Positions 793 to 62,472 of a stretch of 64,000 nt of DNA are shown in pieces. A program made the translations under genes and the position numbers. The stretch spans positions 11,988,501-12,052,500 of the forward strand of contig AP031356.1 of NCBI GenBank assembly GCA_037833965.1, written 5' to 3'. Below the pieces are notes generated by a model that worked only from the letters and a program-made list of their open reading frames with translations, was not told where the DNA came from and did no database searches. Source of the DNA: Marchantia polymorpha subsp. ruderalis. Its lineage: Eukaryota > Streptophyta > Marchantiopsida > Marchantiales > Marchantiaceae. Positions within the stretch are counted from its first letter, which is position 1. The number at the start of each line of letters is the position of its first letter.

Positions 793-2155
793 CCTCTCCT
801 TCCGAAAATAATCCAGGTGTTGCTTCGCAATATGGCATAGATGTGGCTTCTGGAAAGAAATAGAGCTTTTCGGCAAAAGCTACCAAAGACTCGGAATCAA
901 GAGAAGGTTTTGACGATGGTGTAGCTAATCGTCTCCAAAAGGACTTGGGATCCTTCATCAGGTCCTTTGTCAAGGATTCTTGCTTTCGTCTTAAGAAAGC
1001 TCGTTTCTTAGACTTCACCAAGTCTTTGTATATCCTTGTCAAAAGAAGCTGACTTTGAATATCCAAAGACCTATCAACAGACCTTGCCCTTGCTAGCTTG
1101 CATTTGGAGTCAAACTATCCATTGCAAGGTAGCCCCTTAGCAATCCTAGTACTATGCCTCAAAAAGAACTTCGATGCAGAAGTTTTGAGCAATTCTATGA
1201 GCTGTAAACTAGCGGTATGCGAATCTGGACTCCATATGGTGTGAGTCAAAAGATCTTGTAGATGTTCTGCATAAAGGTCTCTTTTACAAGGATCTAAGCG
1301 AAACTTGGGAGAAGCTAAAAGAGATTGGCAAGGTGAAGTAGAGATTGATTTTGACATTGAAAGTGTGAACAAAAGAGGTGCATGATCTGATTCAGGTTGA
1401 GGATCCAAAACATCAAAATTGGAGATCAGAGAGGTACTAACCAAGGAAGACAAGAGAAAATCTATTGTGCTAGCACCGGTAGGGGAAAAACAAGTATTGG
1501 ACTGAGAGTTGGGAAAGCGAGAGGTTCCATTGAGAACCTTCAAGTTACAAGTGGCTCCAAATGTCAAAAAGTGCTCTGTCAAAGAGTTTGTGGAAGGATC
1601 AAAAGAGGTTCTAGACCACAAACTATCGTAAATTTCTTCAAACATAGAAGAAGCCAAGGGATCACTAAATTGAGTAAATTGAGCACAACGTATACGAGCA
1701 TTGAAATCTCCAGCAAGAAAGACATCCCCTTTACTTTGGAATCTAAGAACATCTTCAATAAGCCGATGGAATGGTTCACTTCGGTTGCAAAAGCGTGTTG
1801 AGTAGATACCCATGGACAATGGTGCAAAATAACAAATTGCCAAATAGCAATAAGATCCTCCAACCACCCCGAGACGTAGCCAATGATACTGTCCACCAAC
1901 ATCTTGAGCTTCTAGATGTATGAGAGGTAGAAGATGAGACCTGATGAAAGTAGCAATACCTCCTTGACCCCTTCCCGCATGTTGTCTTCTCTGGTTCCAT
2001 GTCGACCCCACCAAGGTAAACCCTTCCAACTCAGCAATAGTATTGCTTTCATGTTCCCAAGTCTCCACAATGTTGATGACGTCAGCCATCTTCCAAATCG
2101 GAGCAGCACTCACATACTTTGTTGTTGAAAGTCCTCGGATATTCCACACCAACAC
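793..2155 (-). pseudogene. LINE-C ORF2, endonuclease and start of RT, one nonsense codon
   Basis: Family-C ORF2 read on the minus strand from about 2155. The endonuclease domain shows WNIRGLS, the VETWEHES glutamate, GDFNAR, STIDFLLSS and SDHAPLLF. A TAG at 1115-1117 replaces the Trp of the conserved PCNGWFD motif. The frame then continues unbroken (1066 to 793) until the family-A insertion cuts it before the RT core. No ATG is present at the expected ORF2 start, where A and B have ATG TGG; C has GTG TGG. The same nonsense codon recurs in the C copies at 7827 and 56211, so it is an inherited defect and not local decay. Confidence 0.88.
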
Positions 2156-2173
2156 CCTTATCTTCTCGGATTG

Positions 2174-2929
2174 CTATGTTGACGACACCTTCCTCCTCTG
2201 AGTAACGATTGCTCTCCCATCGTGTAAATAAGCAACAAAACCCGATTCTTGAGCCTCTTTTACCTTCGCAAGCTCCTTTCTCCTAACTTCCACTTGTAGA
2301 GGAGTCAGATCAGGATCCAACCATATTCTACGTCCCTTTAACATAGCCTTATTAGCCAAGGCAACATCACGTTGAGTTTGATTGACAAACTTCACTATAA
2401 TACCACGAGGTTGAGCTCCCTTGTTTCCAATACGATAAGCTTGAGCCAATTCCGCATTGGAAACCTGAAGTGTTTCATCCAAAAACTTGGTGACAACACT
2501 CTTGACATCTTCATTCTCTATTTCAGGTAAACCTGAAATTCTCACATTCTTCCTACGTGCAAGCTGGTTGGACTTTTCAATCTCTTGTTCTTGACAAAAA
2601 GAGATTTGAGCAGCCTTTGTAGCTTCAGCGTAGGATTTGATCTTCAAATCTAAGCTTTCGACCACCTCATGCAATCTAGGACTATCCGCACTTGTCATCT
2701 GAGAGCATACCTTCCCTTGGATGTCATCAACAGATTTAGATACATCCCACATCACACCCACACTATCCTTGAACATCTTCTCCACGTTCTTCTTTGATCC
2801 CTTCAACTCTCGAATTTGATTATGTGCGAGAGTTAAAGCAGCCTGTTGCATCTTGAATTCATGTCGAAGTTCCTTCAATTCTTCAAAAATTGTTTGCAGA
2901 AGCTGAAAAATATCGTCTTGAGAAGCCAT
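2174..2929 (-). CDS. LINE-C ORF1 (L1-type RNA-binding protein)
   Basis: Intact 251-aa ORF beginning MASQDD. Residues about 5-60 and 80-115 look coiled-coil forming (heptad-like ELKELRHEF). An RRM-like domain follows, starting at KNVRISGLPE, and then a C-terminal domain with GRRIWLDPDLTPLQVE and RRKELAKVKEAQ. This is the layout of vertebrate L1 ORF1p (Transposase_22 family), a trimeric nucleic-acid chaperone that coats the LINE RNA. The stop is TAG followed by CAATCC, with ORF2 in the same frame immediately downstream. The 5' UTR monomer array sits directly upstream, as expected for a complete 5' end. Confidence 0.85.
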   Translation of the reverse strand: MASQDDIFQLLQTIFEELKELRHEFKMQQAALTLAHNQIRELKGSKKNVEKMFKDSVGVMWDVSKSVDDIQGKVCSQMTSADSPRLHEVVESLDLKIKSYAEATKAAQISFCQEQEIEKSNQLARRKNVRISGLPEIENEDVKSVVTKFLDETLQVSNAELAQAYRIGNKGAQPRGIIVKFVNQTQRDVALANKAMLKGRRIWLDPDLTPLQVEVRRKELAKVKEAQESGFVAYLHDGRAIVTQRRKVSST

Positions 2930-10104: not shown

Positions 10105-10128
10105 TAACACCCTCAAGCTCTTGGATTG

Positions 10129-10870
10129 CTATGTGGATGATTGTCTCTTCCTTTGAGTGACAATTGCTTGTCCATCACGAAGATAAGCAAAAAATCCAGC
10201 ATCTTGAGCTTCTTTGACTTTTGCAAGCTCCTTTCTCCTTGCCTCTACTTGTAGAGGTGTGAGATCGGGATCTAACCAAATCCTACGTCCTTTGAGTACA
10301 GCTTTGTTGGCTAAAGCTGTATCACGTTGAGTTTGGTCATTGAACTTAACTATGATGGCTCGAGGTTGGGTTCCTATTGTTCCAATGCGAAAAGCTTGAG
10401 CCACATCCGCATTAGGAACATCAAGTGTTTCAGCTAAAAACTTGGTGACAACACTCTTCACCTCTTCCTTCTCAGATTCAGGTAGACCAGAAATTCTCAC
10501 ATTCTTTCTACGAGCAAATTGATTAGTCTTTTCAATCTCTTGCTCTTGACTTAAAAAGATATGAGCAGACTTAGTGGCTTCTGCATAAGATTTCATCTTC
10601 ACCTCTAGACTTTCAACTAACCACTTCATGCAATCTAGGAGTAGCAGCAGTGGAAGCTTGAGAATCAACTTTCTCCTGGATATCCTCTACGTGTTCTGAA
10701 ATATCAACCATAATCTTCTTGAAACTCTTTTGAGAGAGCTTCAACTCTCTAATTTCATATTGAGCTGCAATTAAAGTAGAGCTCTGTACCTTGAACTCTG
10801 CACGTAGTACTTTCAACTCTTCCAAAACCGTTTGCAACAGATTGAGTATGAAATTGTCTTGAGACGCCAT
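10129..10870 (-). pseudogene. LINE-B ORF1 with 4-bp frameshift
   Basis: Family-B ORF1 from ATG at 10870 (MASQDNFILN). The N-terminal coiled coil is followed by the L1-type RRM (KNVRISGLPE) and C-terminal domain (GRRIWLDPDL). Four extra bases near 10616-10620, absent from the duplicate at 61735-62472, shift the frame before the RRM. The stop is TAG CAATCC with ORF2 in frame. Confidence 0.86.
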
Positions 10871-13561: not shown

Positions 13562-13589
13562 CAAGAGGAGGAGACAATCATCAACCTAG

Positions 13590-13967
13590 CAATCCGAGAG
13601 ATTGAGGGTGTTGATGTGGACATTTCCAAGACCTCTTGAGTGGTACTACTTTGAGCCTTGATCCACATACATCTAGTTTGCAACTAACTGAGTTGCTCCA
13701 AAACTCTGCTTCTAAGTTCTTTTTGAGACATAAGACCAGGAGAGCTAGAGGTCTTCCTTGCAATGGATGGTTTGACTTTGATTGCAAGCAAGCGAGGGCG
13801 AGATCACTTGATAAATCCTTGGATCTTCACAATCGGCTGATTATGACAAGACTTTACAAAGACTTGGTGAAGTCCAAGAAACGAGCATTTTTGAGGCAGA
13901 AGCAAGAGTGCTTGACAAAGGAGCTCTTGGAGAATCCCAAATCCTTTTGGAGGCGGTTGGTAGTACG
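13590..13967 (+). pseudogene. LINE-A ORF2 piece with endonuclease deleted
   Basis: After the TAG CAATCC boundary, ORF2 starts normally (TTGATGTGGA) but at about 13620 jumps to the CATTTCCAAGACC region. Nearly all of the endonuclease (about 1 kb) is gone. The linker (FFLRHKTRRARGLPCNGWFDFDC) and the early RT-proximal region (SKKRAFLRQKQECL) then continue to 13967, where a LINE-B is inserted. The element could not have mobilised itself after this deletion. Confidence 0.82.
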
Positions 13968-16329: not shown

Positions 16330-17659
16330 TACGATCTTCTAAACTTACTCTTGATCCCAAGTCTTTGATTTCTTTTGCTGAAAAGCTTTATTTCTTTCCC
16401 AAAGCCTTTTGACCCTTTGGGTCCCACGGGCTTGATCCATTTACCATTTACCATTTACCAATGTTGCATCTATGCCACATTGTGAAGGAAATCCAGGCTT
16501 ATTTTCAGAAGTTGAAGTGATGACTCAACTCAGACAATTGGCAAATGGTAAATGTGAGGATTTGGATGGGCTTTCCATTGAACTTCTCAAGTGGGGAGGA
16601 GATGCTATTGGGCCTATACTCACAAAAGTGTTAGAGGATGCTGCTATTCATGGCTTTCCTTCATCTTGGTCTCTACGGAAGATTGTTCCTATTCACAAAT
16701 CTGGGAGCAAGGCCTTGGTGACAAACTATCGCACTATCATGGTGGGTAGTATTTTTGCCAAGTTATTTGGCAAATTGGTGGAGTCAAAGTTGAGCACATG
16801 GGCTGAATCTTGTCAAAAAAGAGCACAGTTCCAAGCTGGTTTTCGTCCTACATTCAACACTATAGACCATATCTTGGTTTTACGTGTTCTATGGGAGAAA
16901 TCCAAGGGTAATGGAAAAGCTTTGTTTTGTGCCTTCATTGATTTCAAGAAAGCTTTTGACACAGTACCTCTTGAGCTTTTATGGCAAAGATTGCAAACCA
17001 TTGGAGTACCATCAGATCTGGCTGCTGCAAAGAATGAAATCAGGGAGTTGAAGATTTCTCACAAAAGTTTTGAGAAGATCATGCTCCAAATCTCTGGATC
17101 TGTTGAGGACATTCAAGACAAGGTTGGTTCTCAAGCTTCTACTGTTACTACTCCTGCTTTGCATGAAGTGGTTGAAACTCTAGAAGTGAAAATGAAGTCC
17201 TATGCTGAAGCTACCAAGTCTGCTCATATCTCTTTCTGTCAAGAGCAAGAGATTGAAAAGGCTAATCAATTTGCTCGTATGAAGAATGTGAGGATTTCGG
17301 GTCTACCTGAATCTGAGAAGGAAGAGGTGAAGAGTGTGGTCACCAAGTTTTTGACTGAAACACTTGATGTTCCTAATCCGGATTTGGCTCATGCTTATCG
17401 TATTGGCAACAAAGGCACACAACCTCGTGCCATTATAGTTAAGTTTGTGGATCAAGCTCAACGTGATATGGCTTTAGCTAACAAGGCCATTCTCAAGGGA
17501 CGGAGGATTTGGTTAGATCCAGATCTTACACCTCTTCAAGTTGAAGCAAGAAGGAAGGAGCTTGCAAAAGTCAAAGAAGCTCAAGATGCAGGTTTTGTAG
17601 CTTATCTACGTGATAGTCAAGCTATTATCACCAAGAGGAGGAGACAATCATCAACCTAG
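16330..17659 (+). pseudogene. LINE-A ORF2-ORF1 chimera
   Basis: ORF2 resumes after the LINE-B insertion, is interrupted by the 3'-UTR scrap, and then runs through RT blocks (LRKIVPIHKSG, QAGFRPTFNTIDHI, FIDFKKAFDTV). At about 17018 it passes in frame into the ORF1 coiled coil (AAAKNEIRELKISHKS) and on to the ORF1 end and its TAG at 17657. The open frame 16472-17659 (395 aa) thus fuses an RT N-terminal half lacking YADD to most of ORF1. It looks like recombination between two A copies at GATCT-TGGC similarity. No function is implied. Confidence 0.82.
16403..16460 (+). mobile_element. LINE-A 3'-UTR-only insertion
   Basis: 58 bp consisting of the last part of the A 3' UTR (AGCCTTTTGACCC...) plus three heptamers, inserted in the ORF2 sequence TTTCCCAA/TGTTGC. 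The tail's CCA coincides with target CCA at the 3' junction. Confidence 0.85.
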
Positions 17660-17683
17660 CAATCCAAGAGATTGAGGGTGTTG

Positions 17684-23482: not shown

Positions 23483-26400
23483 CTAGCTAGTGCCCAAAGC
23501 ACTAGAACGGTAACTAATAATATCTCTAATGTAACAACCTAAATCATAAGGCTCGAGTTGAAGCAGAGAAAAGAAATTCTCGACATCAACTTTATGCGCC
23601 CCTCGAATCTCTACATACCTAGAACAAGTAAGAAATACATGCTCTTCATCCTCAACTTTTCTTCCATCACATAGCCTACAAATACGTTCACTCCTATCAA
23701 TGTTCAACCAACGCCCTTCTTCAATCCCAAGACTATGAGATCCAGTTCTATGTCTAGCAATAATATGACGTAAAGAAGTAGATATCCCTGCAAGTAAGTA
23801 TCCTTGCTCACAATAAACAAGCATAGGATTCACATGAAGTTGATAAAACTGCATCTTGGTGCCTCGTGTGCTCCACATAATGCTGAGAAATTCCTCCCTA
23901 ATACGCTCGCGTAGGGCAATAGGTTGCAAATTCCAATCAAGTTCCGTCACATTCCACCTCAAAGACCAAGTCACCACATCTGCAAACCAACCCTTGGGAC
24001 GTGTGGCATGCATAGCTTCAAGAGGAAGTCGAGAAGCATCAAGAGATCTCACTCTTTTGACGTAAGTGATAGTCAAAAAGAGAGCTTCAGCCTCAAGAGG
24101 TAGACAACCTGTTTCCACAAGAAGAATGGCATAAGAAGTTTGGGTCCTCACACCCAATTCTTCTTGTAAGAAGATCTTTTGCACCCTCTCCAAACGCTGC
24201 CAACCTGTCTTCTTACAACCAGGACCCCACACTTGTGTTCCATATAAGATAACGGGAAACACTAAGCTCCTGAATAAGAATTTCCTAAGACTCCAAGACA
24301 CTAGATGAGCTCCTCTACATCTATTTAGCAATGAATATAGAGCTTTGAAACCAGCTTCTACCCTCTTTTGCACACAAAGTGCCCAACTATAATCAGATGA
24401 GAAATCAATGCCCAAATATTTGTAACTTTTCACTTGTTCCAACTCTAATCCTTTGTAACAGAAAGAGAGCTTGGATCTAGTGCCCACAAGAATGACTTTG
24501 GACTTCTCCAAATTGACTTCCATCTGATTTTGAGTACAAAAGCTAGCCAAAGTGTCGAGGTGTTTCTGTAAACTAGTGGCATCACGTGCTAGTAATATGA
24601 CATCATCTGCATACAAAAGAGCTTTGAAGACAAAGCCTCCAAGTTTAACACCTTCGCTATCACAATCCTCCAACCACCTTTCTATATCATCTATGAAAAC
24701 TCCAAAGAGAGTGGGAGAGAGAGGACAACCTTGAATGACTCCAATGGTGCTGATAATCTCTTCGGTTTGAGAAGTGTTGATCTTGGCACGAACTGAGTGG
24801 TATAATGCAGCCACCGCTGCCAAGAGATCTGATGGTACTCCAATGGCTTGCAATCTTTGCCATAAAAGCTCACGAGGTACTGTGTCAAAAGCTTTCTTGA
24901 AATCAATGAAGGCACAAAACAAAGCTTTTCCATTACCTTTGGATTTCTCCCATAGAACACGTAAAACCAAGATATGGTCTATAGTGTTGAATGTAGGACG
25001 AAAACCAGCTTGGAACCGCGCTCTCTTCTGACAAGATTCAGCCCATGTGCTCAACTTTGACTCCACCAATTTGCCAAATAACTTGGCAAAAATACTACCC
25101 ACCATGATAGTGCGATAGTTTGTCACCAAGGCCTTGCTCCCAGATTTGTGAATAGGAACAATCTTCCGTAGAGACCAAGATGAAGGAAAGCCATGAATAG
25201 CAGCATCCTCTAACACTTTCGTGAGTATAGGCCCAATAGCATCTCCTCCCCACTTGAGAAGTTCAATGGAAAGCCCATCCAAATCTTCACATTTACCATT
25301 TGCCAATTGTCTGAGTTGAGTCATCACTTCAACTTCTGAAAATAAGCCTGGATTTCCTTCACAATGTGGCATAGATGCAACATTGGGAAAGAAATAAAGC
25401 TTTTCAGCAAAAGAAATCAAAGACTTGGGATCAAGAGTAGGTTTAGAAGATCGTACTGCCAACCGCCTCCAAAAGGATTTGGGATTCTCCAAGAGCTCCT
25501 TTGTCAAGCACTCTTGCTTCTGCCTCAAAAATGCTCGTTTCTTGGACTTCACCAAGTCTTTGTAAAGTCTTGTCATAATCAACCGATTGTGAAGATCCAA
25601 GGATTTATCAAGTGATTTCGCCCTTGCTTGCTTGCAATCAAAGTCAAACCATCCATTGCAAGGAAGACCTCTAGCTCTCCTGGTCTTATGTCTCAAAAAG
25701 AACTTAGAAGCAGAGTTTTGGAGCAACTCAGTTAGTTGCAAACTAGATGTATGTGGATCAAGGCTCCAAGTAGTACAAGTCAAGAGGTCTTGGAAATGTT
25801 CACTATAAAGTTGCTTCTTACTAGCATCTAAACAAAACTTGGGGGAAGTTGAAACATAGTGACATGTAGGGAGAGGGATTGACGTTGACAACAAAAGAGT
25901 AAATAAAAGAGGTGTATGATCTGATTCTGGTTGAGGCTCTAGAATATCAAACGCTGAGATAAATGAACTATTAGTGGCTGAGGACAAAAGATAATCTATA
26001 GTGCTAACACCAGTAGAGGAAAAACATGTATTGGAGTGAGAGTTGGGAAAGAAAGAAACACCATTGAGAACTTTCAGATTACAAGTGGCTCCAAAAGTCA
26101 AGAAATGCTCAGTCAAATCATTTGTACAAGGATCACAAGAGACTCTAGACCACAAACTATCTCTACTTTCTTCAAAAGAGTGAGAAGACAAGGAACTATC
26201 AAATTGTGTAAATTGAGCGGAACGTATGCGGGCATTGAAGTCTCCAACAAGAAAAACTTCACCTTTGTCTTGATATTTGAGAACATCTCCTATGAGCCGA
26301 TGGAATGGTTGACTTCGATTGCAAGTGCTTGTGGAGTAGATCTGCATGGATAATGGTGCAAAGTAGCAAACTGCCAAATAACTGTAAGATCCTCCAATCA

Positions 26401-26683
26401 ATCCAAGACGAAGCCAATGATATTGTTTCCCAATATCTTGGCTTTCCAAATGTATCATAGGAAGAAGTTCAGATCTGATGAAAGTAGCAATGCCTCCAAA
26501 GCCTCTTCCTGCTCGTCGATTTCTATGGTTCCAAGTAGATCCCACCAGAGTAAACCCTTGTATCTCTCCAATAACATTGCTTTCATGCTCCCAAGTCTCA
26601 ACAATGTTGAGGATGTCCGCCATCTTCCAAATCGGATGTGCACTCACATACTTAGTTGTAGATAGGCCTCTTATGTTCCACAT
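23483..26683 (-). CDS. LINE-A ORF2: endonuclease / reverse transcriptase, intact
   Basis: 1066 residues from ATG at 26683 (MWNIRGLS). Residues about 1-235 are an APE-type endonuclease: WNIRG Asn, VETWEHES Glu, VGDFNAR, STIDYLLSS and SDHTPLLF. Residues about 480-800 are RT: LRKIVPIHKSG, QAGFRPTFNTIDHI, FIDFKKAFDTV (near 595), QGCPLSP, YADDVILLA (near 690), KYLGIDFS. A CCHC finger (ICRLCDGRKVEDEEHVFLTC) lies near 1005. The protein nicks target DNA and copies the LINE RNA at the nick. The frame is continuous with ORF1 except for one TAG, so it may be made by readthrough; the ATG has a weak context (T at -3). L1-clade assignment is by motif only. Confidence 0.95.
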   Translation of the reverse strand: MWNIRGLSTTKYVSAHPIWKMADILNIVETWEHESNVIGEIQGFTLVGSTWNHRNRRAGRGFGGIATFIRSELLPMIHLESQDIGKQYHWLRLGLIGGSYSYLAVCYFAPLSMQIYSTSTCNRSQPFHRLIGDVLKYQDKGEVFLVGDFNARIRSAQFTQFDSSLSSHSFEESRDSLWSRVSCDPCTNDLTEHFLTFGATCNLKVLNGVSFFPNSHSNTCFSSTGVSTIDYLLSSATNSSFISAFDILEPQPESDHTPLLFTLLLSTSIPLPTCHYVSTSPKFCLDASKKQLYSEHFQDLLTCTTWSLDPHTSSLQLTELLQNSASKFFLRHKTRRARGLPCNGWFDFDCKQARAKSLDKSLDLHNRLIMTRLYKDLVKSKKRAFLRQKQECLTKELLENPKSFWRRLAVRSSKPTLDPKSLISFAEKLYFFPNVASMPHCEGNPGLFSEVEVMTQLRQLANGKCEDLDGLSIELLKWGGDAIGPILTKVLEDAAIHGFPSSWSLRKIVPIHKSGSKALVTNYRTIMVGSIFAKLFGKLVESKLSTWAESCQKRARFQAGFRPTFNTIDHILVLRVLWEKSKGNGKALFCAFIDFKKAFDTVPRELLWQRLQAIGVPSDLLAAVAALYHSVRAKINTSQTEEIISTIGVIQGCPLSPTLFGVFIDDIERWLEDCDSEGVKLGGFVFKALLYADDVILLARDATSLQKHLDTLASFCTQNQMEVNLEKSKVILVGTRSKLSFCYKGLELEQVKSYKYLGIDFSSDYSWALCVQKRVEAGFKALYSLLNRCRGAHLVSWSLRKFLFRSLVFPVILYGTQVWGPGCKKTGWQRLERVQKIFLQEELGVRTQTSYAILLVETGCLPLEAEALFLTITYVKRVRSLDASRLPLEAMHATRPKGWFADVVTWSLRWNVTELDWNLQPIALRERIREEFLSIMWSTRGTKMQFYQLHVNPMLVYCEQGYLLAGISTSLRHIIARHRTGSHSLGIEEGRWLNIDRSERICRLCDGRKVEDEEHVFLTCSRYVEIRGAHKVDVENFFSLLQLEPYDLGCYIRDIISYRSSALGTS

Positions 26684-26701
26684 CAACACCCTCAATCTCT
26701 T

Positions 26702-26710
26702 GGATTGCTA
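26702..26710 (-). promoter_or_regulatory. In-frame UAG-CAA-UCC between ORF1 and ORF2
   Basis: ORF1 ends TAG CAA TCC, and the eight codons from the stop to the ORF2 ATG contain no further stop and keep the frame. TAG followed by CAA resembles the tobamovirus-type readthrough context (UAG-CARYYA), differing at the last base. The same nonamer stands at this place in every A, B and C copy that retains the boundary. Readthrough is inference. Confidence 0.6.
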
Positions 26711-27445
26711 GGTTGATGATTGTCTCCTTCTCTTGGTGATAATAGCTTGACTATCACGTAGATAAGCAACAAAACCTGCATCTTGAGCTTCTTTGACTTT
26801 TGCAAGCTCCTTCCTCCTTGCTTCAACTTGAAGAGGTGTAAGATCTGGATCTAACCAAATCCTCCGTCCCTTGAGAATGGCCTTGTTAGCTAAAGCCATA
26901 TCACGTTGAGCTTGATCTACAAACTTGACAATAATGGCACGAGGTTGTGTGCCTTTGTTGCCAATACGATAAGCATGAGCCAAATCCGGATTAGGAACAT
27001 CAAGTGTTTCAGTCAAAAACTTGGTGACCACACTCTTCACCTCTTCCTTCTCAGATTCAGGTAGACCCGAAATCCTTACATTCTTCATACGAGCAAATTG
27101 ATTAGCCTTTTCAATCTCTTGCTCTTGACAGAAAGAGATATGAGCAGACTTGGTAGCTTCAGCATAGGACTTCATTTTCACCTCTAGAGTTTCAACCACT
27201 TCATGCAAAGCAGGAGTAGTAACAGTAGAAGCTTGAGAACCAACCTTGTCTTGAATGTCATCAACAGATCCAGAGATTTGGAGCATGATCTTCTCAAAAC
27301 TTTTGTGAGAAATCTTCAACTCCCTGATTTCATTCTTTGCCGCTGCCAAGGCAACATTTTGTGCCTTGAATTCTTGGCGTAGCACTTTCAATTCCTCCAA
27401 AACCGATTGCACAAGATTGAGAAGTTTGTTTTCAGAATCCATCAT
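26708..27445 (-). CDS. LINE-A ORF1, intact
   Basis: 245 aa starting MMDSENKLLN. Residues about 5-115 form a coiled coil with regular leucine/lysine heptads. About 120-200 is an RRM (KNVRISGLPE ... AIIVKFVDQAQRD), and about 200-240 is a basic C-terminal domain (GRRIWLDPDLTPLQVEARRK, ending KRRRQSST). The layout matches L1 ORF1p of animals, an RNA-binding chaperone in the LINE ribonucleoprotein. No CCHC knuckle is present, unlike many flowering-plant L1 ORF1 proteins. Confidence 0.92.
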   Translation of the reverse strand: MMDSENKLLNLVQSVLEELKVLRQEFKAQNVALAAAKNEIRELKISHKSFEKIMLQISGSVDDIQDKVGSQASTVTTPALHEVVETLEVKMKSYAEATKSAHISFCQEQEIEKANQFARMKNVRISGLPESEKEEVKSVVTKFLTETLDVPNPDLAHAYRIGNKGTQPRAIIVKFVDQAQRDMALANKAILKGRRIWLDPDLTPLQVEARRKELAKVKEAQDAGFVAYLRDSQAIITKRRRQSST

Positions 27446-30604: not shown

Positions 30605-31342
30605 ATGATGGATTCTGAAAACAAACTTCTCAATCTTGTGCAATCGGTTTTGGAGGAATTGAAAGTGCTACGCCAAGAATTCAAGGCACAAAATGTTGCC
30701 TTGGCTGCTGCAAAGAATGAAATCAGGGAGTTGAAGATTTCTCTCAAAAGTTTTGAGAAGTTCATGCTCCAAATCTCTGGATCTGTTGAGGACATTCAAG
30801 ACAAGGTTGGTTCTCAAGCTTCTACTGTTACTACTCCTGCTTTGCATGAAGTGGTTGAAACTCTAGAGGTGAAAATGAAGTCCTATGCTGAAGCTACCAA
30901 GTCTGCTCATATCTCTTTCTGTCAAGAGCAAGAGATTGAAAAGGCTAATCAATTTGCTCGTATGAAGAATGTGAGGATTTCGGGTCTACCTGAATCTGAG
31001 AAGGAAGAGGTGAAGAGTGTGGTCACCAAGTTTTTGACTGAAACACTTGATGTTGCTAATCCGGATTTGGCTCATGCTTATCGTATTGGCAACAAAGGCA
31101 CACAACCTCGTGCCATTATTGTTAAGTTTGTGGATCAAGCTCAACGTGATATGGCTTTAGCTAACAAGGCCATTCTCAAGGGACGGAGGATTTGGTTAGA
31201 TCCAGATCTTACACCTCTTCAAGTTGAAGCAAGGAGGAAGGAGCTTGCAAAAGTCAAAGAAGCTCAAGATGCAGGTTTTGTTGCTTATCTACGTGATAGT
31301 CAAGCTATTATCACCAAGAGAAGGAGACAATCATCAACCTAG
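30605..31342 (+). CDS. LINE-A ORF1, intact
   Basis: 245 aa, MMDSENKLLN to KRRRQSST, with coiled coil, RRM and C-terminal domain as in 26708-27445. Differences from that copy are a few residues (for example ISLKSFEKFM, DVANPD). It ends TAG CAATCC (31340-31348), in frame with ORF2. It belongs to the element whose ORF2 is split by a LINE-B at 32866. Confidence 0.92.
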   Translation: MMDSENKLLNLVQSVLEELKVLRQEFKAQNVALAAAKNEIRELKISLKSFEKFMLQISGSVEDIQDKVGSQASTVTTPALHEVVETLEVKMKSYAEATKSAHISFCQEQEIEKANQFARMKNVRISGLPESEKEEVKSVVTKFLTETLDVANPDLAHAYRIGNKGTQPRAIIVKFVDQAQRDMALANKAILKGRRIWLDPDLTPLQVEARRKELAKVKEAQDAGFVAYLRDSQAIITKRRRQSST

Positions 31343-31366
31343 CAATCCAAGAGATTGAGGGTGTTG

Positions 31367-37926: not shown

Positions 37927-39726
37927 GTCTTGGTGGAGTCAAAGTTGAGCACATGGGCTGAATCTTGTCAGAAGAGAGCGCGGTTCCAAGCTGGTTTTCG
38001 TCCTACATTCAACACTATAGACCATATCTTGGTTTTACGTGTTCTATGGGAGAAATTCAAGGGCAATGGAAAAGCTTTGTTTTGTGCCTTCATTGATTTC
38101 AAGAAAGCTTTTGACACAGTACCTCGTGAGCTTTTATGGAAAAGATTGCAAACCATTGGAGTACCATCAGATCTCTTGGCAGCGGTGGCTGCATTATACC
38201 ACTCAGTTCGGGCCAAGATCAACACTTCTCAAACCGAAGAGATTATCAGCACCATTGGAGTCATTCAAGGTTGTCCTCTCTCTCCCACTCTCTTTGGAGT
38301 TTTCATAGATGATATAGAAAGGTGGTTGGAGGATTGTGATAGCGAAGGTGTTAAACTTGGAGGCTTTGTCATCAAAGCTCTTTTGTATGCAGATGATGTC
38401 ATATTACTAGCACGTGATGCCACTAGTTTACAGAAACACCTCGACACTTTGGCTAGCTTTTGTACTCAAAATCAGATGGAAGTCAATTTGGAGAAGTCCA
38501 AAGTCATTCTTGTGGGCACTAGATCCAAGCTCTCTTTCTGTTACAAAGGATTAGAGTTGGAACAAGTGAAAAGTTACAAATATTTGGGCATTGATTTCTC
38601 ATCTGATTATAGTTGGGCACTTTGTGTGCAAAAGAGGGTAGAAGCTGGTTTCAAAGCTCTATATTCATTGCTAAATAGATGTAGAGGAGCTCATCTAGTG
38701 TCTTGGAGTCTTAGGAAATTCTTATTCAGGAGCTTAGTGTTTCCCGTTATCTTATATGGAACACAAGTGTGGGGTCCTGGTTGTACGAAGACAGGTTGGC
38801 AGCGTTTGGAGAGGGTGCAAAAGATCTTCTTACAAGAAGAATTGGGTGTGAGGACCCAAACTTCTTATGCAATTCTTCTTGCGGAAACAGGTTGTCTACC
38901 TCTTGAGGCTGAAGCTCTCTTTTTGACTATCACTTACGTCAAAAGAGTGAGATCTCTTGATGCTTCTCGACTTCCTCTTGAAGCTTTGCGTGCCACACGT
39001 GCCAAGGGTTGGTTTGCAGATGTGGTGACTTGGTCTTTGAGGTGGAATGTGACGGAAGTCGATTGGAATTTGCAACCTATTGCCCTACGCGAGCGTATTA
39101 AGGAGGAATTTCTCAGCATTATGTGGAGCACACGAGGCACCAAGATGCAGTTTTATCAACTTCATGTGAATCCTATGCTTGTTTATTGTGAGCAAGGATA
39201 TTTACTTGCAGAGATATCTACTTCTTTACGTCATATTATTGCTAGACATAGAACTGGATCTCATAGTCTTGGGATTGAAGAAGGGCGTTGGTTGAACATT
39301 GATAGGAGTGAACGTATTTGTAAGCTATGTGATGTGATGCTATGTAGAAAGAATGTGAGAATTTCTGGTCTACCTGAATCTGAGAAGGAAGAGGTGAAGA
39401 GTGTTGTCACCAAGTTTTTAGCTGAAACACTTGATGTTCCTAATGCGGATGTGGCTCAAGCTTTTCGCATTGGAACCATAGGAACTCAACCTCGAGCCAT
39501 CATAGTTAAGTTCAATGACCAAACTCAACGTGATACAGCTTTAGCCAACAAAGTTGTACTCAAAGGACGTAGGATTTGGTTAGATCCCGATCTCACACCT
39601 CTACAAGTAGAGGCAAGGAGAAAGGAGCTTGCAAAAGTCAAAGAAGCTCAAGATGCTGGATTTTTTGCTTATCTTCGTGATGGACAAGCAATTGTCACTC
39701 AAAGGAAGAGACAATCATCCACATAG
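37927..39726 (+). pseudogene. LINE-A ORF2 (RT) fused in frame to LINE-B ORF1 RRM
   Basis: Open frame from LVESKLSTW through the A RT (FIDFKKAFDTV, QGCPLSP, YADDVILLA) and thumb to ICKLCDVMLC. At about 39343 it passes into family-B ORF1 (KNVRISGLPE to the end, TAG at 39724). The CCHC finger is lost at the join. The B part has VVLKGRRIW (A to V relative to other B copies). It looks like an A-B recombination or deletion join; about 600 aa are open, but it has no native start. Confidence 0.85.
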
Positions 39727-39750
39727 CAATCCAAGAGCTTGAGGGTGTTA

Positions 39751-44755: not shown

Positions 44756-45272
44756 TGTTACTACTCCTGCTTTGCATGAAGTGGTTGAAACTCTAGAGGT
44801 GAAAATGAAGTACTATGCTGAAGCTACTAAGTGTGCTCATATCTCTTTCTGTCAAGAGCAAGAGATTGAAAAGGCTAATCAATTTGCTCGTATGAAGAAT
44901 GTGAGGATTTCGGGTCTACCTGAATCTGAGAAGGAAGAGGTGAAGAGTGTGGTCACCAAGTTTTTGACTGAAACACTTGATGTTCCTAATCTGGATTTGG
45001 CTCATGCTTATCGTATTGGCAACAAAGGCACACAACCTCGTGCCATTATTGTTAAGTTTGTAGATCAAGCTCAACGTGATATGGCTTTAGCTAACAAGGC
45101 CATTCTCAAGGGACGGAGGATTTGGTTAGATCCAGATCTTACACCTCTTCAGGTTGAAGCAAGGAGGAAGGAGCTTGCAAAAGTCAAAGAAGCTCAAGAT
45201 GCAGGTTTTGTAGCTTATCTACGTGATAGTCAAGCTATTATCACCAAGAGGAGGAGACAATCATCAACCTAG
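44756..45272 (+). pseudogene. LINE-A ORF1, 5'-truncated
   Basis: From VTTPALHEVVETLEVKM through RRM and C-terminal domain to SST and TAG CAATCC (45270-45278). The coiled coil N terminus is replaced by LINE-B 5' UTR; the 204-aa open frame from 44658 is therefore a chance fusion. Private changes include MKYYAEATKCAHI. Confidence 0.85.
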
Positions 45273-45296
45273 CAATCCAAGAGATTGAGGGTGTTG

Positions 45297-47352: not shown

Positions 47353-50300
47353 CTACGCCCTCGGAGTGAAAGAATCTGATCTTCGATGGAATAACTTCAA
47401 CTTGTCGTGGTTGACTCGATCGAAGTGACGTCCTCCTAACTCCTTGATGTCATAAGTGAAATTTCCCCACACCTTCTCAACTATGAAAGGTCCAAAATAC
47501 TTAGGAAGAAACTTTTTCCTAGCTCTCTTGTATCTAATTGCATCAAAGAGCATCACCCAATCACCTTCCTTGAACGGCTTCAAGTTCTGGTTTCCACTTC
47601 GTTTGTCGTGATACTTCTTCTGCAAGTGTTGAGCCCGCTCCACTCGTACCATGGCTAGTGCTCGAGCTTCCTCCAACTCCATCAATTGTTGTTGGCGAGA
47701 CTTGATGGCTTCTGCTCCATTTGATTTCTTCAACCTTTGCTGGATTGTTGTGAATGTTGTCAAGTCAAACTGTATGGGAAGTTTTGACTCAACTCCATAC
47801 ACCATCCGAAAAGGTGAGTATCCAGTAGATGTCTTCCATGTTGTGCGATACTCCCATAAGATAGCATGGAGCCTCTTGTCCCAATTGTGTTTACTCCCGT
47901 CCATGTCTGCATCCTTGGCCAACATCATACACAAAGTGTAGTTGGTCCGCTCCGCCAACCCATTAGCGTTAGGTTTGTAGGAAGTGGTCACTCGAGCCTT
48001 GATGGAAAAGTGCTCCAACATGGCTTGAATCATACTTCCCACAAATTCTCCTCCTCTATCTGATACTAACTCCAATGGACAACCAAATCGAGTAATGATT
48101 CTCTCATATAAAAATCTACCAACCTCCTTCTCATTAGTAGATTTAAGTGGTCTTGCCTCTACCCACTTCGTAAGATAATCTGTAGCTATCACAATGAACT
48201 TATTCCCTCGAGGAGTAAGATTCAAAGGACCTACAAAATCTATTCCCCACTTTTCAAAAGGACCTAACACTGGTACAGAAATCATAGGAGGGGTTTTCAT
48301 GGACTTTTTAGCAAAAGCTTGACACACATCACAACTTTTGCAATATTCCACACAATCCTTAAAAATACCCTTCCAATGATAACCAGCATCAAGAATTTTG
48401 AAGGCAGTTACCTTCCCCGCAAAATGTCCTCCACATACTGCACCATCATGAAACTCCTTCATGAGTTGTAATGCCTCTCCTCTCCCAACCGCCCTTCGTA
48501 GAAGTCCGTCAGCTCCTTGATGAAAAAGTACCTTCTCCATGATCATATATGGTTGACATCTCTTCACTAATGCATTTTTCTCCCTTTGATGCATTCCTTG
48601 AGAAAACTCTCCTTTAGAGATGAAATCCCAAATTTCCTTGTACTCCTCCGGTACTGTTGTCACCGTGTCCATGACTAGCAAGTCCTCATCCGGAAAGGTG
48701 TCATCTACTGACTGATCTCCTCCATCATCATATGCTCTCGACATCAAATCCGCATTAGCATGCTTCTTTCCAGGTCTATCCTCAATGGTATAATCAAACT
48801 CTGCTAGTAGTAGCTTCCATCTAGCTATCCTCCCTTCAGCATTAGGCTTGTTGAAAATGTATTTCAAAGCCTTATGATCAGTCACTATAGTGAATCTCCC
48901 ACCCAACAAATAATGTCGAAACTTCTTAAGTGAGAAGATTACAGCTAAGGCCTCTCTCTCTGTCACTGAGTAATTCTTCTCCGCTTGAACCATTTGTCTA
49001 CTAGCATAGGCAATTGGATGATCATGCTTTTCATCATCTAATTGACTCAAGGTGCATCCTACAGCAATATTTGATGCATCTGTGTAGAGAATGAAAGGTT
49101 TACCCCAATCCGGTTTCGCCAAAATTGGAGCCGTCACCAACGCCTTCTTGAGAACTTCGAACGCCTTCTTTGCAGCTTCATCCTTGAAAATGAGTTCGTA
49201 CTCCACTCCCTTCTTCATGTAATTCGTCAAGGCATGAGCTTTGTTGGAGAAGGACAAGATGAACCGTCGATAGTACCCCACCATACCAAGGAATTGCCTC
49301 AACTTGGTTAAAGTCGCCGGAAAAGGTAACTCCATGATCCGTGTCACCTTCTCTGGGTCCACCGCTATACCATTCTTGGAGATGATATGCCCCAACAATA
49401 GGCCTTCCTCACATCCAAAAATGCATTTTTCTGGATTGAGTGAAGCCTTAGCTTCCTCCAGCCGTTGAAGTATTTTGATCAAATGATCAAAATGATCCGC
49501 TTTCCTCCCGTAAACACAAAAATCATCTATGAAATCCCTTACAAACTTTCCAATGAAAGGTTCAAACACTCTATTCATGAACCTTTGAAAAGTGGCAGGA
49601 GCATTACATAGACCAAACGGCATCACTCTAAAAGCGAAGGTTCCCCATGGAGTAGTAAAAGTTGTTTTGAGTTGGTCTTCTAAGGCAATTTGGATTTGGT
49701 TATAGCCACTATAACCATCTCCAAAACTATACCACTCATGGCCAGCAACCTCCTCTAGAATCTCATCTATGAAAGGCAAGGGATAGTAGTCTTTCTTTGT
49801 GACAGCATTCAACTTTTTGTAATCTACGCACACTCGTAGCTTACCATTCTTCTTCTTCACTATCACAATTGGAGACACCCATTCAGAATTTTCTACCTCG
49901 TAGATGAAGCCAGCCTCCTTGAGCTTGTCGATCTCCTCCTTCACCACAAGAGCCGTAGGTGGATTTATTCGGCGTTGCTTTTGCCGAATAGGACGAGCTT
50001 TCTCCTCCAACTCGATGCAATGAGTCTCCAACGTCACATGCTTAAGATCCTTGTAACTAAAGGCAAAAACATGAATATATTTGCGAAATATATCCAGAAA
50101 CTTTGCCTTTTCCTCCTTGGTAACCTTGGGACCAAACCTGAGAGTGGACAGTCGTCGACACACCTCCTCTTCGCTCATCTCCACTTTGTCAGGATCTTTC
50201 TTCACTCCAGGCCTAGGCAACAACTCCATGGCAGCAATGACTTGTACTTGAACATTATCATCAGAAGAGTACTCCGATGATGTTTCTTGATCAGAAGTTG

Positions 50301-52119: not shown

Positions 52120-52341
52120 TTCCAACTAATTTTTTTTTTATTTTTATTTTTATTGGAAATTTATATGGGGCTTCCTAATACAATATAAACAACACTAACT
52201 CCATCCTTGAGTAATTCATCAAAGGAAACACAAAAGGAATTGGTTGTTCCAAGATAGCCAAAGCTCTCTCCTCTCCTAGGCATACGATGAGTCTTACCCT
52301 CATCATCATCTTCTCCATCATTCGAATGATGATCTCCATCT

Positions 52342-55146: not shown

Positions 55147-57587
55147 TTATGATATCATCTGCCTACAAAAGAGCTTTGATCACAAAGTCTCCAAGTTTGA
55201 TTCCTTCACTCTCACAATCATCCAACCACCTTTCTATATCTTCTATGAATATTCTGAATAGAGTAGGAGAGAGAGGACAACCTTGAATAACTCCAATGGT
55301 GCTTGAGATCTCTTGAGGCTGAGAGGCATCAATCTTAGCTCGAACTGAAGTGTATAAAGTGGCCACAGCTCCGAGTAGATTAGCCGGTACTCCAATGTCT
55401 TGTAGTCTTTCCCATAAAAGCTTTCGAGGAACAGTATCAAAAGCTTTCTTCAAATCGATGAAGGCACAAAATAAAGCTTTCCCATTGCCCTTGGATTTCT
55501 CCCATAAAACACGTAAGGCCAAAATATGGTCAATAGTGTTCTATGTAGGACGAAAACCAGCTTGGGCCTTTGCTCTCTTCTGAAAATCCTCTGTCCATGT
55601 GCTCAACTTCGATTCTACCAACTTCCCAAACAACTTACACAACAACAACAAAAACACTACCAACCATGATGGTGCGATAGTTTGTCACCACGTCCTTCCT
55701 TCCTGATTTATGAATAGGAACAATCTTCCGCATGGACCAAGTTGATGGAAAACCATGAACCATAGCATCTTCCAAAAGCTTAGTGAGAACCGGTCCAATA
55801 CAATCTCCTCCCCACTTGATAAGTTCAATGGACAAGCCATCTAAATCCTCACATTTGCCATTTGCTAATTTTCGGAGAATAGTCATCACCTCTCCTTCCG
55901 AAAATAATCCAAGTGTTGCTTCGCAATATGGCATAGATGTGGCTTCTGGAAAGAAATAGAGCTTTTCGGCAAAAGCTACCAAAGACTCGGAATAAAGAGA
56001 AGGTTTTGACGATGGTGTAGCTAATCGTCTCCAAAAGGACTTGGGATCCTTCATCAGGTCCTTTGTCAAGGATTCTTGCTTTCGTCTTAAGAAAGCTCGT
56101 TTCTTAGACTTCACCAAGTCTTTGTATATCCTTGTCAAAAGAAGCCGACTTTGAATATCCAAAGACCTATCAACAGACCTTGCCCTTGCTAGCTTGCATT
56201 TGGAGTCAAACTATCCATTGCAAGGTAGCCCCTTAGCAATCCTAGTACTATGCCTCAAAAAGAACTTCGATGCAGAAGTTTTGAGCAATTCTATGAGCTG
56301 TAAACTAGCGGTATGCAAATCTGGACTCCATATGGTGTGAGTCAAAAGATCTTGTAGATATTCTGCATAAAGGTCTCTTTTACAAGGATCTAAGCGAAAC
56401 TTGGGAGAAGCTAAAAGAGATTGGCGAGGTGAAGTAGAGATTGATTTTGACATTGAGTTTGTGAACAAAAGAGGTGCATGATCTGATTCAGGTTGAGGAT
56501 CCAGAACATCAAAATTGGAGATCAGAGAGGTACTAACCAAGGAAGACAAGAGAAAATCTATTGTGCTAGCACCGGTAGGGGAAAAACAAGTATTGGACTG
56601 AGAGTTGGGAAAGCGAGAGGTTCCATTGAGAACCTTCAAGTTACAAGTGGCTCCAAATGTCAAAAAAAGTTCTGTCAAAGAGTTTGTGGAAGGATCAAAA
56701 GAGGTTCTAGACCACAAGCTATCGTAAATTTCTTCAAACATAGAAGAAGCCAAGGGATCACTAAATTGAGTAAATTGAGCACATCGTATACGAGCATTGA
56801 AATCTCCAGCAAGAAAGACATCCCCTTTACTTTGGAATCTAAGAACATCTTCAATAAGCCGATGGAATGGTTCACTTCGGTTGCAAAAGCGTGTTGAGTA
56901 GATACCCATGGACAATGGTGCAAAATAACAAATTGCCAAATAGCAATAAGATCCTCCAACCACCCCGAGACGTAGCCAATGATACTGTCCACCAACATCT
57001 TGAGCTTCTAGATGTATGAGAGGTAGAAGATGAGACCTGATGAAAGTAGCAATACCTCCTTGATCCCTTCCCGCATGTTGTCTTCTCTGGTTCCATGTCG
57101 ACCCCACCAAGGTAAACCCTTCCAACTCAGCAATAGTATTGCTTTCATGTTCCCAAGTCTCCACAATGTTGATGACGTCAGCCATCTTCCAAATCGGAGC
57201 AGCACTCACATAATTTGTTGTTGAAAGTCCTCGGATATTCCACACCAACACCCTTATCTTCTCGGATTGCTATGTTGACGACACCCTCCTCCTCTGAGTA
57301 ACGATTGCTCTCCCATCGTGTAAATAAGCAACAAAACCCGATTCTTGAGCCTCTTTTACCTTCGCAAGCTCCTTTCTCCTAACTTCCACTTGTAGAGGAG
57401 TCAGATCAGGATCCAACCATATTCTACGTCCCTTTAACATAGCCTTATTAGCCAAGGCAACATCACGTTGAGTTTGATTGACAAACTTCACTATAATACC
57501 ACGAGGTTGAGCTCCCTTGTTTCCAATACGAAAAGCTTGAGCCAATTCCGCATTGGAAACCTGAAGTGTTTCATCCAAAAACTTGGT
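55147..57587 (-). pseudogene. LINE-C: ORF2 (RT to EN) and ORF1 C terminus
   Basis: ORF2 on the minus strand from 57251 (no ATG) through the endonuclease, the inherited TAG at 56211-56213, and the RT down to the YADD region at 55147. An ACAACAACAAC-type insertion at about 55636-55648 shifts the RT frame next to FAKLFGK. ORF1 C-terminal domain (57270-57578) precedes it, ending TAG CAATCC. The ORF1 remainder lies beyond the LINE-A insertion at 59804-60171. Confidence 0.87.
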
Positions 57588-60171: not shown

Positions 60172-60967
60172 TCTAAAACAGGAAACAGGTTGTCTACCTC
60201 TTGAGGCTGAAGCTCTCTTTTTGACTATCACTTACGTCAAAAGAGTGAGATCTCTTGGTGCTTCTCGACTTCCTCTTGAAGCTTTGCGTGCCACACGTCC
60301 CAAGGGTTGGTTTGCAGATGTGGTGACTTGGTCTTTGAGGTGGAATGTGACGGAACTCAATTGGAATTTGCAACCTATTGCCCTACGCGAGCGTATTAAG
60401 GAGGAATTTCTCAGCATTATGTGGAGCACACGAGGCACCAAGATGCAGTTTTATCAACTTCATGTGAATCCTATGCTTGTTTATTGTGAGCAAGGATACT
60501 TACTTGCAGAGATATCTACTTCTTTACGTCATATTATTGCTAGACATAGAACAGGATCTCATAGTCTTGGGATTGAAGAAGGGCGTTGGTTGAACATTGA
60601 TAGGAGTGAACGTATTTGTAGACTATGTGATGGAAGAAAAGTTGAGGATGAAGAGCATGTATTTCTTACTTGTTCTAGGTATGTAGAGATTCGAGTGGCC
60701 CATAAAGTTGATGTGGAGAATTTCTTTTCTCTGCTTCAACTCGAGCCTTATGATTTAGGTTGTTACATTAGGGATATTATTAGTTACCGTTCTAGTGCTT
60801 TGGGCACTAGCTAGGGGGTTCTTTTGGTTCTCTCCTAGTTTGGAGTTGGATTGTTTGTATTGTGTTTTTTAGCCTTTTGACCCTTTGATCGGGCTTGATC
60901 TATTTACCATTTACCATTTACCATTTGGGTCCCACGGGCTTGATCTATTTACCATTACCATTACCAT
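60172..60967 (+). pseudogene. LINE-A 3' end: ORF2 C terminus, 3' UTR, tail
   Basis: Counterpart of 8608-9361. ORF2 terminus to 60814 with intact finger ICRLCDGRKVEDEEHVFLTC, then 3' UTR interrupted at 60888 by a shorter insertion. The tail in hexamer register ends at about 60967. Confidence 0.86.
60888..60923 (+). mobile_element. 36-bp LINE 3'-end insertion inside a LINE 3' UTR, TTTG duplication
   Basis: ATCGGGCTTGATCT plus three heptamers, flanked by TTTG at 60884-60887 and 60924-60927. Absent at the equivalent place in copy 1, so it postdates the duplication. Confidence 0.85.
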
Positions 60968-61710
60968 AGAATATCAAATTTCGAAATAAAGAAGCTATGA
61001 GTGGCTGAAGATAGAAGATAATCAATGGTGCTAACACCTGTAGGAGAAAAGCACGTATTGGAAAGGGAGTTGGGAAAGAGAGAGATACCGTTGAGAACTT
61101 TCAAATTACATGTGGCTCCAAAGGTTAGAAAGTGTTCTGTCAAAGGATTTGTACAAATATCAGAAGACTTTCTACACCACATACTATCTTCAAGTTCTTC
61201 AAAGGAGGGAGAACTCAAGAGATCACCAACTTGAGTAAATTGTGCACAACCTATTCGAGCATTGAAATCTCCAACCAGAAAAACTTCACCTTTGCTCTGA
61301 TAATTGAGAACATCTCCTATAAGTCGATGGAATGGTTGACTCCGATTGCAAGTGTGTGTGGAGTAGATAGGCATGGACAATGGTGCAAAGTAACAAACAG
61401 CCAAATAACTATAAGATCCTCCAACCAAACCAAGACGAAGCCAATGATATTGACCTCCAATATCCTGACCTTCTAAATGTATCAAAGGTAGAAATTGAGA
61501 TCTGATGAAAGTAGCAATACCGCCATAGCCTCTTCCAGCTCGTTGACTTCTCTGGTTCCAAGTGGATCCCACCAAAGTAAACCCTGGTATCTCTCCAATA
61601 GTGTTGCTCTCATGTTCCCACGTCTCCACAATGTTGATGATGTCCGCCATCTTCCAAATCGGATTAGCACTCACATACTTGGTTGTAGAAAGACCTCTAA
61701 TATTCCACAT
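60968..61710 (-). pseudogene. LINE-B ORF2 endonuclease, 3'-truncated
   Basis: ATG at 61710 in frame with ORF1. WNIRGLS, VETWEHES, GDFNARIG and STIDYLLSS are present and there is no nonsense codon (HLEGQDIGG intact, unlike copy 1). It ends at FISKFDIL where the LINE-A tail joins. RT is absent. Confidence 0.87.
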
Positions 61711-61734
61711 TAACACCCTCAAGCTCTTGGATTG

Positions 61735-62472
61735 CTATGTGGATGATTGTCTCTTCCTTTGAGTGACAATTGCTTGTCCATCACGAAGATAAGCAAAAAA
61801 TCCAGCATCTTGAGCTTCTTTGACTTTTGCAAGCTCCTTTCTCCTTGCCTCTACTTGTAGAGGTGTGAGATCGGGATCTAACCAAATCCTACGTCCTTTG
61901 AGTACAGCTTTGTTGGCTAAAGCTGTATCACGTTGAGTTTGGTCATTGAACTTAACTATGATGGCTCGAGGTTGGGTTCCTATTGTTCCAATGCGAAAAG
62001 CTTGAGCCACATCCGCATTAGGAACATCAAGTGTTTCAGCTAAAAACTTGGTGACAACACTCTTCACCTCTTCCTTCTCAGATTCAGGTAGACCAGAAAT
62101 TCTCACATTCTTTCTACGAGCAAATTGATTAGTCTTTTCAATCTCTTGCTCTTGACTTAAAGAGATATGAGCAGACTTAGTGGCTTCTGCATAAGATTTC
62201 ATCTTCACCTCTAGACTTTCAACCACTTCATGCAATCTAGGAGTAGCAGCAGTGGAAGCTTGAGAACCAACTTTCTCCTGGATATCCTCTACGTGTTCTG
62301 AAATATCAACCATAATCTTCTTGAAACTCTTTTGAGAGAGCTTCAACTCTCTAATTTCATATTGAGCTGCAATTAAAGTAGAGCTCTGTACCTTGAACTC
62401 TGCACGTAGTACTTTCAACTCTTCCAAAACCGTTTGCAACAGATTGAGTATGAAATTGTCTTGAGACGCCAT
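61735..62472 (-). CDS. LINE-B ORF1, intact
   Basis: 245 aa from ATG at 62472 (MASQDNFILNLLQTV). Coiled coil about 5-115 with LKLSQKSFKKIM, RRM from KNVRISGLPE, and C-terminal domain GRRIWLDPDLTPLQVE ending QRKRQSST. It ends TAG CAATCC. This is the intact counterpart of the frameshifted copy at 10129-10870 and the best family-B ORF1 in the window. Confidence 0.9.
   Translation of the reverse strand: MASQDNFILNLLQTVLEELKVLRAEFKVQSSTLIAAQYEIRELKLSQKSFKKIMVDISEHVEDIQEKVGSQASTAATPRLHEVVESLEVKMKSYAEATKSAHISLSQEQEIEKTNQFARRKNVRISGLPESEKEEVKSVVTKFLAETLDVPNADVAQAFRIGTIGTQPRAIIVKFNDQTQRDTALANKAVLKGRRIWLDPDLTPLQVEARRKELAKVKEAQDAGFFAYLRDGQAIVTQRKRQSST

Follow-up and report, generated by a model that had tools for sequence, protein, structure and literature searches.

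Possible low-level readthrough of a UAG codon between ORF1 and ORF2 in a LINE lineage of Marchantia polymorpha

Three LINE families and their common ORF1/ORF2 junction

The window, the whole 64,000-base stretch that was analysed (C7:11988501-12052500, in a 9-contig genome of 241,466,482 bases), contains many copies of three families, A, B and C, within one lineage of non-LTR retrotransposons (LINEs). The reading frames on which the analysis draws are the following.

26711..27445, minus strand: ORF1 of family A, 245 codons counted from ATG
23486..26707, minus strand: ORF2 of family A, endonuclease and reverse transcriptase, 1074 open codons after the TAG
23483-23485, minus strand: stop codon of this ORF2
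60964..61734, minus strand: 5' part of ORF2 of family B, 257 open codons, broken copy
2177..2929, minus strand: ORF1 of family C, 251 codons counted from ATG
1118..2173, minus strand: 5' part of ORF2 of family C, 352 open codons, broken copy

The family A ORF2 encodes an apurinic-type endonuclease (PF03372, 2.3e-9) followed by a reverse transcriptase (PF00078, 6.4e-33), the arrangement of an APE-type LINE. The best PDB matches of the reverse transcriptase are R2 and L1 chains, which score alike; for the endonuclease part, a profile search of PDB gave no match at E up to 1. A structure prediction of the endonuclease from five sequences was discarded (mean pLDDT 29.5, first strand not visible). 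For ORF1 of family A, the Pfam search returned no family above cut-off and the PDB comparison no convincing match, and its likeness to coiled-coil and RRM proteins was judged by eye only. Protein identity to family A is 84% in B and 76% in C over the endonuclease stretch, and 81% and 70%, respectively, over ORF1. All three families have a W-N-I-R-G motif near the start of ORF2, and we take the Asn of its W-N to be catalytic. Amid the LINE copies there is also an open Ty3-type gag-pol frame of 1590 codons (window 47353-52125, minus strand) with gag, protease, reverse transcriptase, RNase H and integrase.

The nonamer TAGCAATCC occurs 14 times in the window, against 0.48 occurrences expected from shuffles, an excess that arises because repeats share descent. 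Eleven of these occurrences are ORF1/ORF2 junctions, each reading TAG CAA TCC:

26702..26710, minus strand: family A, stop codon 26708-26710
13587..13595, plus strand: family A, broken copy, open for 23 codons downstream and 14 upstream
17657..17665, plus strand: family A
31340..31348, plus strand: family A, open for 255 codons upstream, ORF2 open for 538 codons
37379..37387, plus strand: family A, open for only 19 codons upstream
45270..45278, plus strand: family A
10123..10131, minus strand: family B
39724..39732, plus strand: family B
61729..61737, minus strand: family B
2168..2176, minus strand: family C
57264..57272, minus strand: family C

A first-pass annotation of the window had placed TAG CAATCC at the end of ORF1 in all three families, and we find it at each of the 11 sites it named (its minus-strand numbers give the last base of the TAG). 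Its statement that the ORF1 frame continues past the TAG also holds at all 11 junctions, for at least 23 codons, several copies being broken farther off. The spacer between ORF1 and ORF2 is zero and the frame common at every one of them, and only the junction at 26710 (minus strand) combines an open ORF1 with the full 1074-codon ORF2. The other three nonamers (1138, 7850 and 56234, plus strand) were rejected as junctions: they stand in one common context with same-frame stops on both sides, and the one at 1138 lies antisense within ORF2 of a C copy.

Conservation and context of the stop codon

The background for the nonamer was taken from a single copy per family, compared over ORF1, the stop and 600 ORF2 codons. 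The identical run at the junction is exactly the 9 nt of the nonamer. Runs of at least 9 nt make up 35 of the 488 identical runs in this comparison, and identity across the three families is seen in 53 of 851 in-phase three-codon windows and in 111 of 389 adjacent pairs of amino-acid-invariant degenerate codons. The nonamer, which had been put forward as conserved, is thus not exceptional against its coding surroundings, and we dropped its conservation as a main argument for a signal; three families are too few for it alone to carry much weight. CAATCT replaces CAATCC in three older relatives of C (L041, L043 and L057), and also in L037, whose protein is 100% identical to the C query.

Genome-wide, a search pattern that fixed the flanks gave 384 junctions, with TAG in 376, TAA in 5, TGA in 0 and another triplet in 3. 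The TAG is altered in 8 of 384 and the codon after it in 2 of 378 (p 0.11), so that the stop varies at least as much as its flanking codon. After insertion the TAG is no better kept than the next codon, as expected under neutral decay. One TAA copy (C1:3519062) retains an open 1074-codon ORF2 (C1:3519098).

Copies with long open frames were then considered separately. Among 66 junction matches in retrieved loci, some of which overlap, obtained with a pattern that fixed CAATC[CT] and left the stop free, 19 keep an open frame over 245 codons or more ahead of the stop and 600 or more behind it. Within the fixed CAATC[CT] pattern all 19 have TAG, each followed by CAATCC; 17 belong to family C with GTG at codon 9 of ORF2 and two to A or B with ATG. 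The share of GTG is biased, since the query has V at codon 9 and 16 of the 17 family C copies come from its best 30 matches; the existence of GTG copies is not affected. Among the best 150 of 782 candidates, 33 family C copies (98-100% identical) have an open frame of exactly 1074 codons, a length which implies that a stop directly precedes codon 1, and 25 of these match the query at 100% and hence have V at codon 9. No intact ORF1-ORF2 fusion was seen among the same 150, where no frame exceeds 1143 codons (counted by eye, a count that is informative only for copies with an unbroken ORF2).

The junction had also been likened to the UAG-CARYYA readthrough signal. The UAG, the CAR and the two pyrimidines do agree with this type I (TMV-like) signal; the sixth base, at +9, is C or U and not A. 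The last three bases are UCC in A, B and C and UCU in L037, L041, L043 and L057, and A at +9 occurs at none of the junction sites listed. In a mutational study of UGA in a mammalian context all six CARYYA bases are described as important (PMC4132726), and they are called essential for TMV (PMC2754532). We therefore rejected membership in the type I class on the +9 base. The tobamovirus signal likewise consists of UAG, CAA and two pyrimidines, and the polymerase-bearing product of these viruses is a low-amount fusion, like the one proposed here (PMC3542737, PMC2754532). The type I signal as described there belongs to RNA viruses and ends in A, whereas the present one ends in C or U and belongs to a LINE in which readthrough is proposed. 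The lineage, a LINE, probably operates in the manner of a leaky-stop system, but it does not belong to type I as defined. The residue inserted at UAG in the TMV context is given as tyrosine in N. benthamiana (PMC2754532), and by analogy tyrosine would be the likeliest residue at the LINE UAG. RNA folding 3' of the stop, where type II/III signals have a structure, revealed nothing unusual (z -0.96, 0.46 and -0.79), and none of 37 consensus pairs in this region covaries in an alignment of 7 sequences.

The start of ORF2 and its translation

Between the TAG and the W-N-I-R-G motif lie a short linker and the codon at which ORF2 might be expected to begin.

26684..26707, minus strand: linker of family A, ORF2 codons 1-8 (QSKRLRVL), in the ORF1 frame and ahead of the first ATG
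26681..26683, minus strand: ORF2 codon 9 of family A, ATG, with T at -3 and T at +4
2147..2149, minus strand: ORF2 codon 9 of family C, GTG instead of ATG
2087..2089, minus strand: ORF2 codon 29 of family C, the first in-frame ATG after the stop, past W-N-I-R-G

In A and B, an ATG stands 24 nt past the stop. It is the only AUG ahead of W-N-I-R-G, and it has T at both -3 and +4, the positions by which the Kozak context rates an AUG. Family C, a young one, was said to have no ATG at the start of ORF2, and this is borne out: it reads GTG TGG, against ATG TGG in A and B. The first AUG that it has past the stop (offset 61) lies in another frame, and a start at the first in-frame AUG, codon 29, would lose W-N-I-R-G. 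The GTG is not old in the lineage, since the older C-like copies L043 and L057 carry ATG at codon 9. With ORF1 and ORF2 in one frame, any upstream in-frame start ends at the TAG. The junctions of A, B and C also have no overlapping or adjacent stop and start of the kind that couples the two frames in SART1.

The linker diverges about as slowly as the coding sequence that follows it. In ORF2 codons 1-8, the 72 pairwise site comparisons over the three family pairs turn up 13 differences (0.18), and codons 9-275 have 0.20 differences per site; pS is 0.56 in ORF1 and 0.46-0.48 in ORF2. If two thirds of the comparisons are counted as independent, so few differences in codons 1-8 would arise at the synonymous rate with a probability of at most about 9e-5. 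An untranslated, unconstrained spacer would be expected to diverge more. Within the linker pN/pS is 0.61 and pS 0.26 (4 of 15.3), values drawn from only three families and 8 codons, a sample too small to establish that the linker is coding; beyond it the frame is plainly coding (pN/pS 0.26 over codons 9-275). The slow change of codons 1-8 could also be due to chance or to a cis-acting RNA element.

We compared the lineage with four other LINE loci of the same genome. In two of them (L079 and L082) ORF1 and ORF2 lie in different frames and overlap as ATGA, and the ORF2 AUG is at least 16 residues ahead of the W-N motif; the other two (L080 and L081) have no ATGA overlap at the frame ends inspected. 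The A/B/C lineage is without any ATGA-type overlap.

The means by which a LINE obtains a small amount of ORF2 protein from a single RNA are settled in few cases. For the A/B/C lineage, we think it somewhat probable that the UAG is read through at a low level to give an ORF1-ORF2 fusion. This reading is favoured by the shared frame, the AUG missing in C, the low divergence after the stop and the contrast with the LINEs that overlap as ATGA. A small amount of such a fusion had already been suggested in the first-pass annotation; the suggestion keeps its place as the favoured reading, though not on the strength of the nonamer or of CARYYA, and reinitiation like that of mammalian L1 is still a rival.

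Most ribosomes would stop at the UAG and release ORF1 protein, and a few would decode it by a near-cognate tRNA, extending the chain into a fusion with endonuclease and reverse transcriptase. The leakiness of the stop would set a two-level output of much ORF1p and little enzyme. ORF2 would do without a good start codon of its own, and in C without an AUG near its beginning. What is observed is the single frame, the retained stop, the AUG missing in C and the slow divergence of codons 1-8. From them we infer the occurrence of readthrough and its rate, the working of an uncleaved fusion, and the role of UAG-CAA as a leaky context. A weak stop context may suit a LINE, which would need little enzyme.

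A bolder version of the readthrough reading, on which we are rather evenly divided but lean towards doubt, is that a centromere-rich land-plant LINE lineage has dispensed with a start codon for ORF2, its endonuclease-reverse transcriptase being made only as a fusion, through a weak, non-consensus UAG and always tethered to ORF1p, in a genome with other LINEs that overlap as ATGA. If true, the fusion of ORF2p to ORF1p could explain cis preference without extra parts, the leakiness of the stop would be a simple dial for transposition in a model liverwort, and a naturally leaky UAG context would exist outside viruses that breaks the CARYYA rule.

The main rival of readthrough is termination followed by AUG-independent reinitiation, as proposed for mammalian L1 (PMC5972666), which we regard as unlikely here, if well short of negligible. 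Ribosomes would restart at the AUG of codon 9 in A and B, at the GUG of codon 9 in C, or, in any of the three, at some other near-cognate such as the GUG of codon 7. The position of the ATG in A and B, so soon after the stop, would suit such a restart, and L1 ORF2 is reported to work with any sense codon at its start (PMC1965478), so the GTG of C is not decisive and C could reinitiate without an AUG. Codons 6-7 (AGG GTG) are moreover identical in A, B and C, and the GUG of codon 7 has A at -3 in all three. However, a start at codon 7 or 9 would drop residues just ahead of W-N-I-R-G that all three families keep (R6, V7 and L8), where two other LINEs of the genome leave at least 16 residues between AUG and motif. 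Reinitiation would also leave codons 1-8 untranslated, yet they diverge no faster than coding sequence, and T occupies both context positions of the AUG in A and B.

Far less probable is an accident of layout, in which an old L1-like element came by drift to have both ORFs in the same frame, TAG CAATCC was kept by recent descent only and ORF2 is translated by internal initiation. A nonamer conserved no more than its surroundings and the near-identity of many copies would be expected from such a history; the slow divergence of codons 1-8 speaks against it, as does the GTG of intact C copies. Least probable is a fusion made by frameshifting, bypassing or splicing round the stop instead of UAG decoding: the single frame and the missing AUG would fit this equally, without preferring it, but with zero spacer and the same frame two compensating shifts would be required, the unmatched codons flanking the UAG in A, B and C (Thr-UAG-Gln) disfavour a hop, and splicing should leave stop-less copies, of which there are 0 among the 19 with long open frames.

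Readthrough has counterparts, close and distant, in other retroelements. Among plant LTR retroelements, the Sirevirus SIRE1 has a proposed stop suppression, with a gene order and product that differ from those of A, B and C. For LINEs the idea of ORF1-stop readthrough is not new: the consensus of Paramecium non-LTR group 3 is described as suggesting it, in a ciliate host and for elements of a separate reverse transcriptase clade whose ORF1 ends in a zinc finger (PMC5405496). Among the top-ranked open-licence literature we found no report of readthrough for plant LINEs or for the A/B/C element. Tca2, an LTR element with an in-frame stop, counts against the readthrough model, since by the account in PMC7175516 readthrough was looked for there and not found.

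Known LINEs differ from the A/B/C lineage mainly at the junction. Mammalian LINE-1 resembles it in having two ORFs, with endonuclease and reverse transcriptase in ORF2 and a start of ORF2 that need not be AUG; its ORFs are separated by 63 nt, against zero spacer and a common frame here (PMC5972666, PMC1965478). In SART1, as described, translation of ORF2 is coupled to the end of ORF1, as it would be here, but through a UAAUG overlap of stop and start (PMC5972666); A, B and C have no such overlap, in contrast to the ATGA of two other LINE loci in the genome. Zorro3 of Candida is an L1-superfamily element with non-overlapping ORFs, as here, but is reported to need the ATG of ORF2 and to have an A-rich inter-ORF region with several stops (PMC1965478, PMC7175516).

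Distribution of copies in the genome

Homologues were scored among the best 150 of 782 and the best 150 of 474 candidates, so that further families may be missed. A search for deeper families, by a pattern for the endonuclease motif G-D-F-N-A that used a codon absent from the retrieved A/B/C copies, gave 29 places, and the 20 examined included no new family: 9 were junction-region DNA matches (8 best to A, 1 to B) and 11 had short or no protein matches. None of 33 pattern matches in viral contigs was confirmed as a relative.

Of the best 150 of 782 candidates, 130 (counted by eye) are grouped in patches, one to a chromosome: C2 14.17-14.39, C3 14.90-15.30, C4 19.86-20.17, C5 15.89-16.11, C6 12.74-12.97, C7 11.93-12.11, C8 12.83-13.03 and C9 10.40-10.79 Mb, with the window inside the C7 patch. 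These patches are perhaps centromeres; such clustering is described for Zepp-type LINE/L1 elements of certain green algae (PMC11005252). Tandem duplication seems to account for part of the amplification, with same-strand copies at constant spacing on C5 (15974660, 15981174 and 15987688; 6514 bases) and C3 (15135486, 15140331 and 15145176; 4845 bases).

Another LINE lies at contig ends. Among the best 150 of 474 candidates, nine of its endonuclease matches are found at C5 12-24 kb, C6 2-94 kb and C7 28.231 and 28.242 of 28.253 Mb; seven of the nine have open frames of 1356-1368 codons, and spacings are about 10.6-11.1 or 26.7 kb. The copy examined, L079, is one of the two loci with the ATGA overlap described above, and the similar locus L082, elsewhere, has a weak zinc-knuckle match in ORF1. 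This LINE is perhaps located in rDNA or subtelomeric arrays; no Rfam family was found in the 2.2 kb examined.

The 5.59 Mb contig C1, perhaps the V sex chromosome, has no entry among the best 150 of 782 candidates. All 36 of its listed junctions are of the family A type, and families B and C may be absent from it. The junctions at 2.599-2.607, 2.965-2.974 and 3.323-3.327 Mb on C1 suggest large duplicated blocks: a set of three is repeated with a constant shift of 366,083 bases, and two of the set return after a further 357,910 bases.
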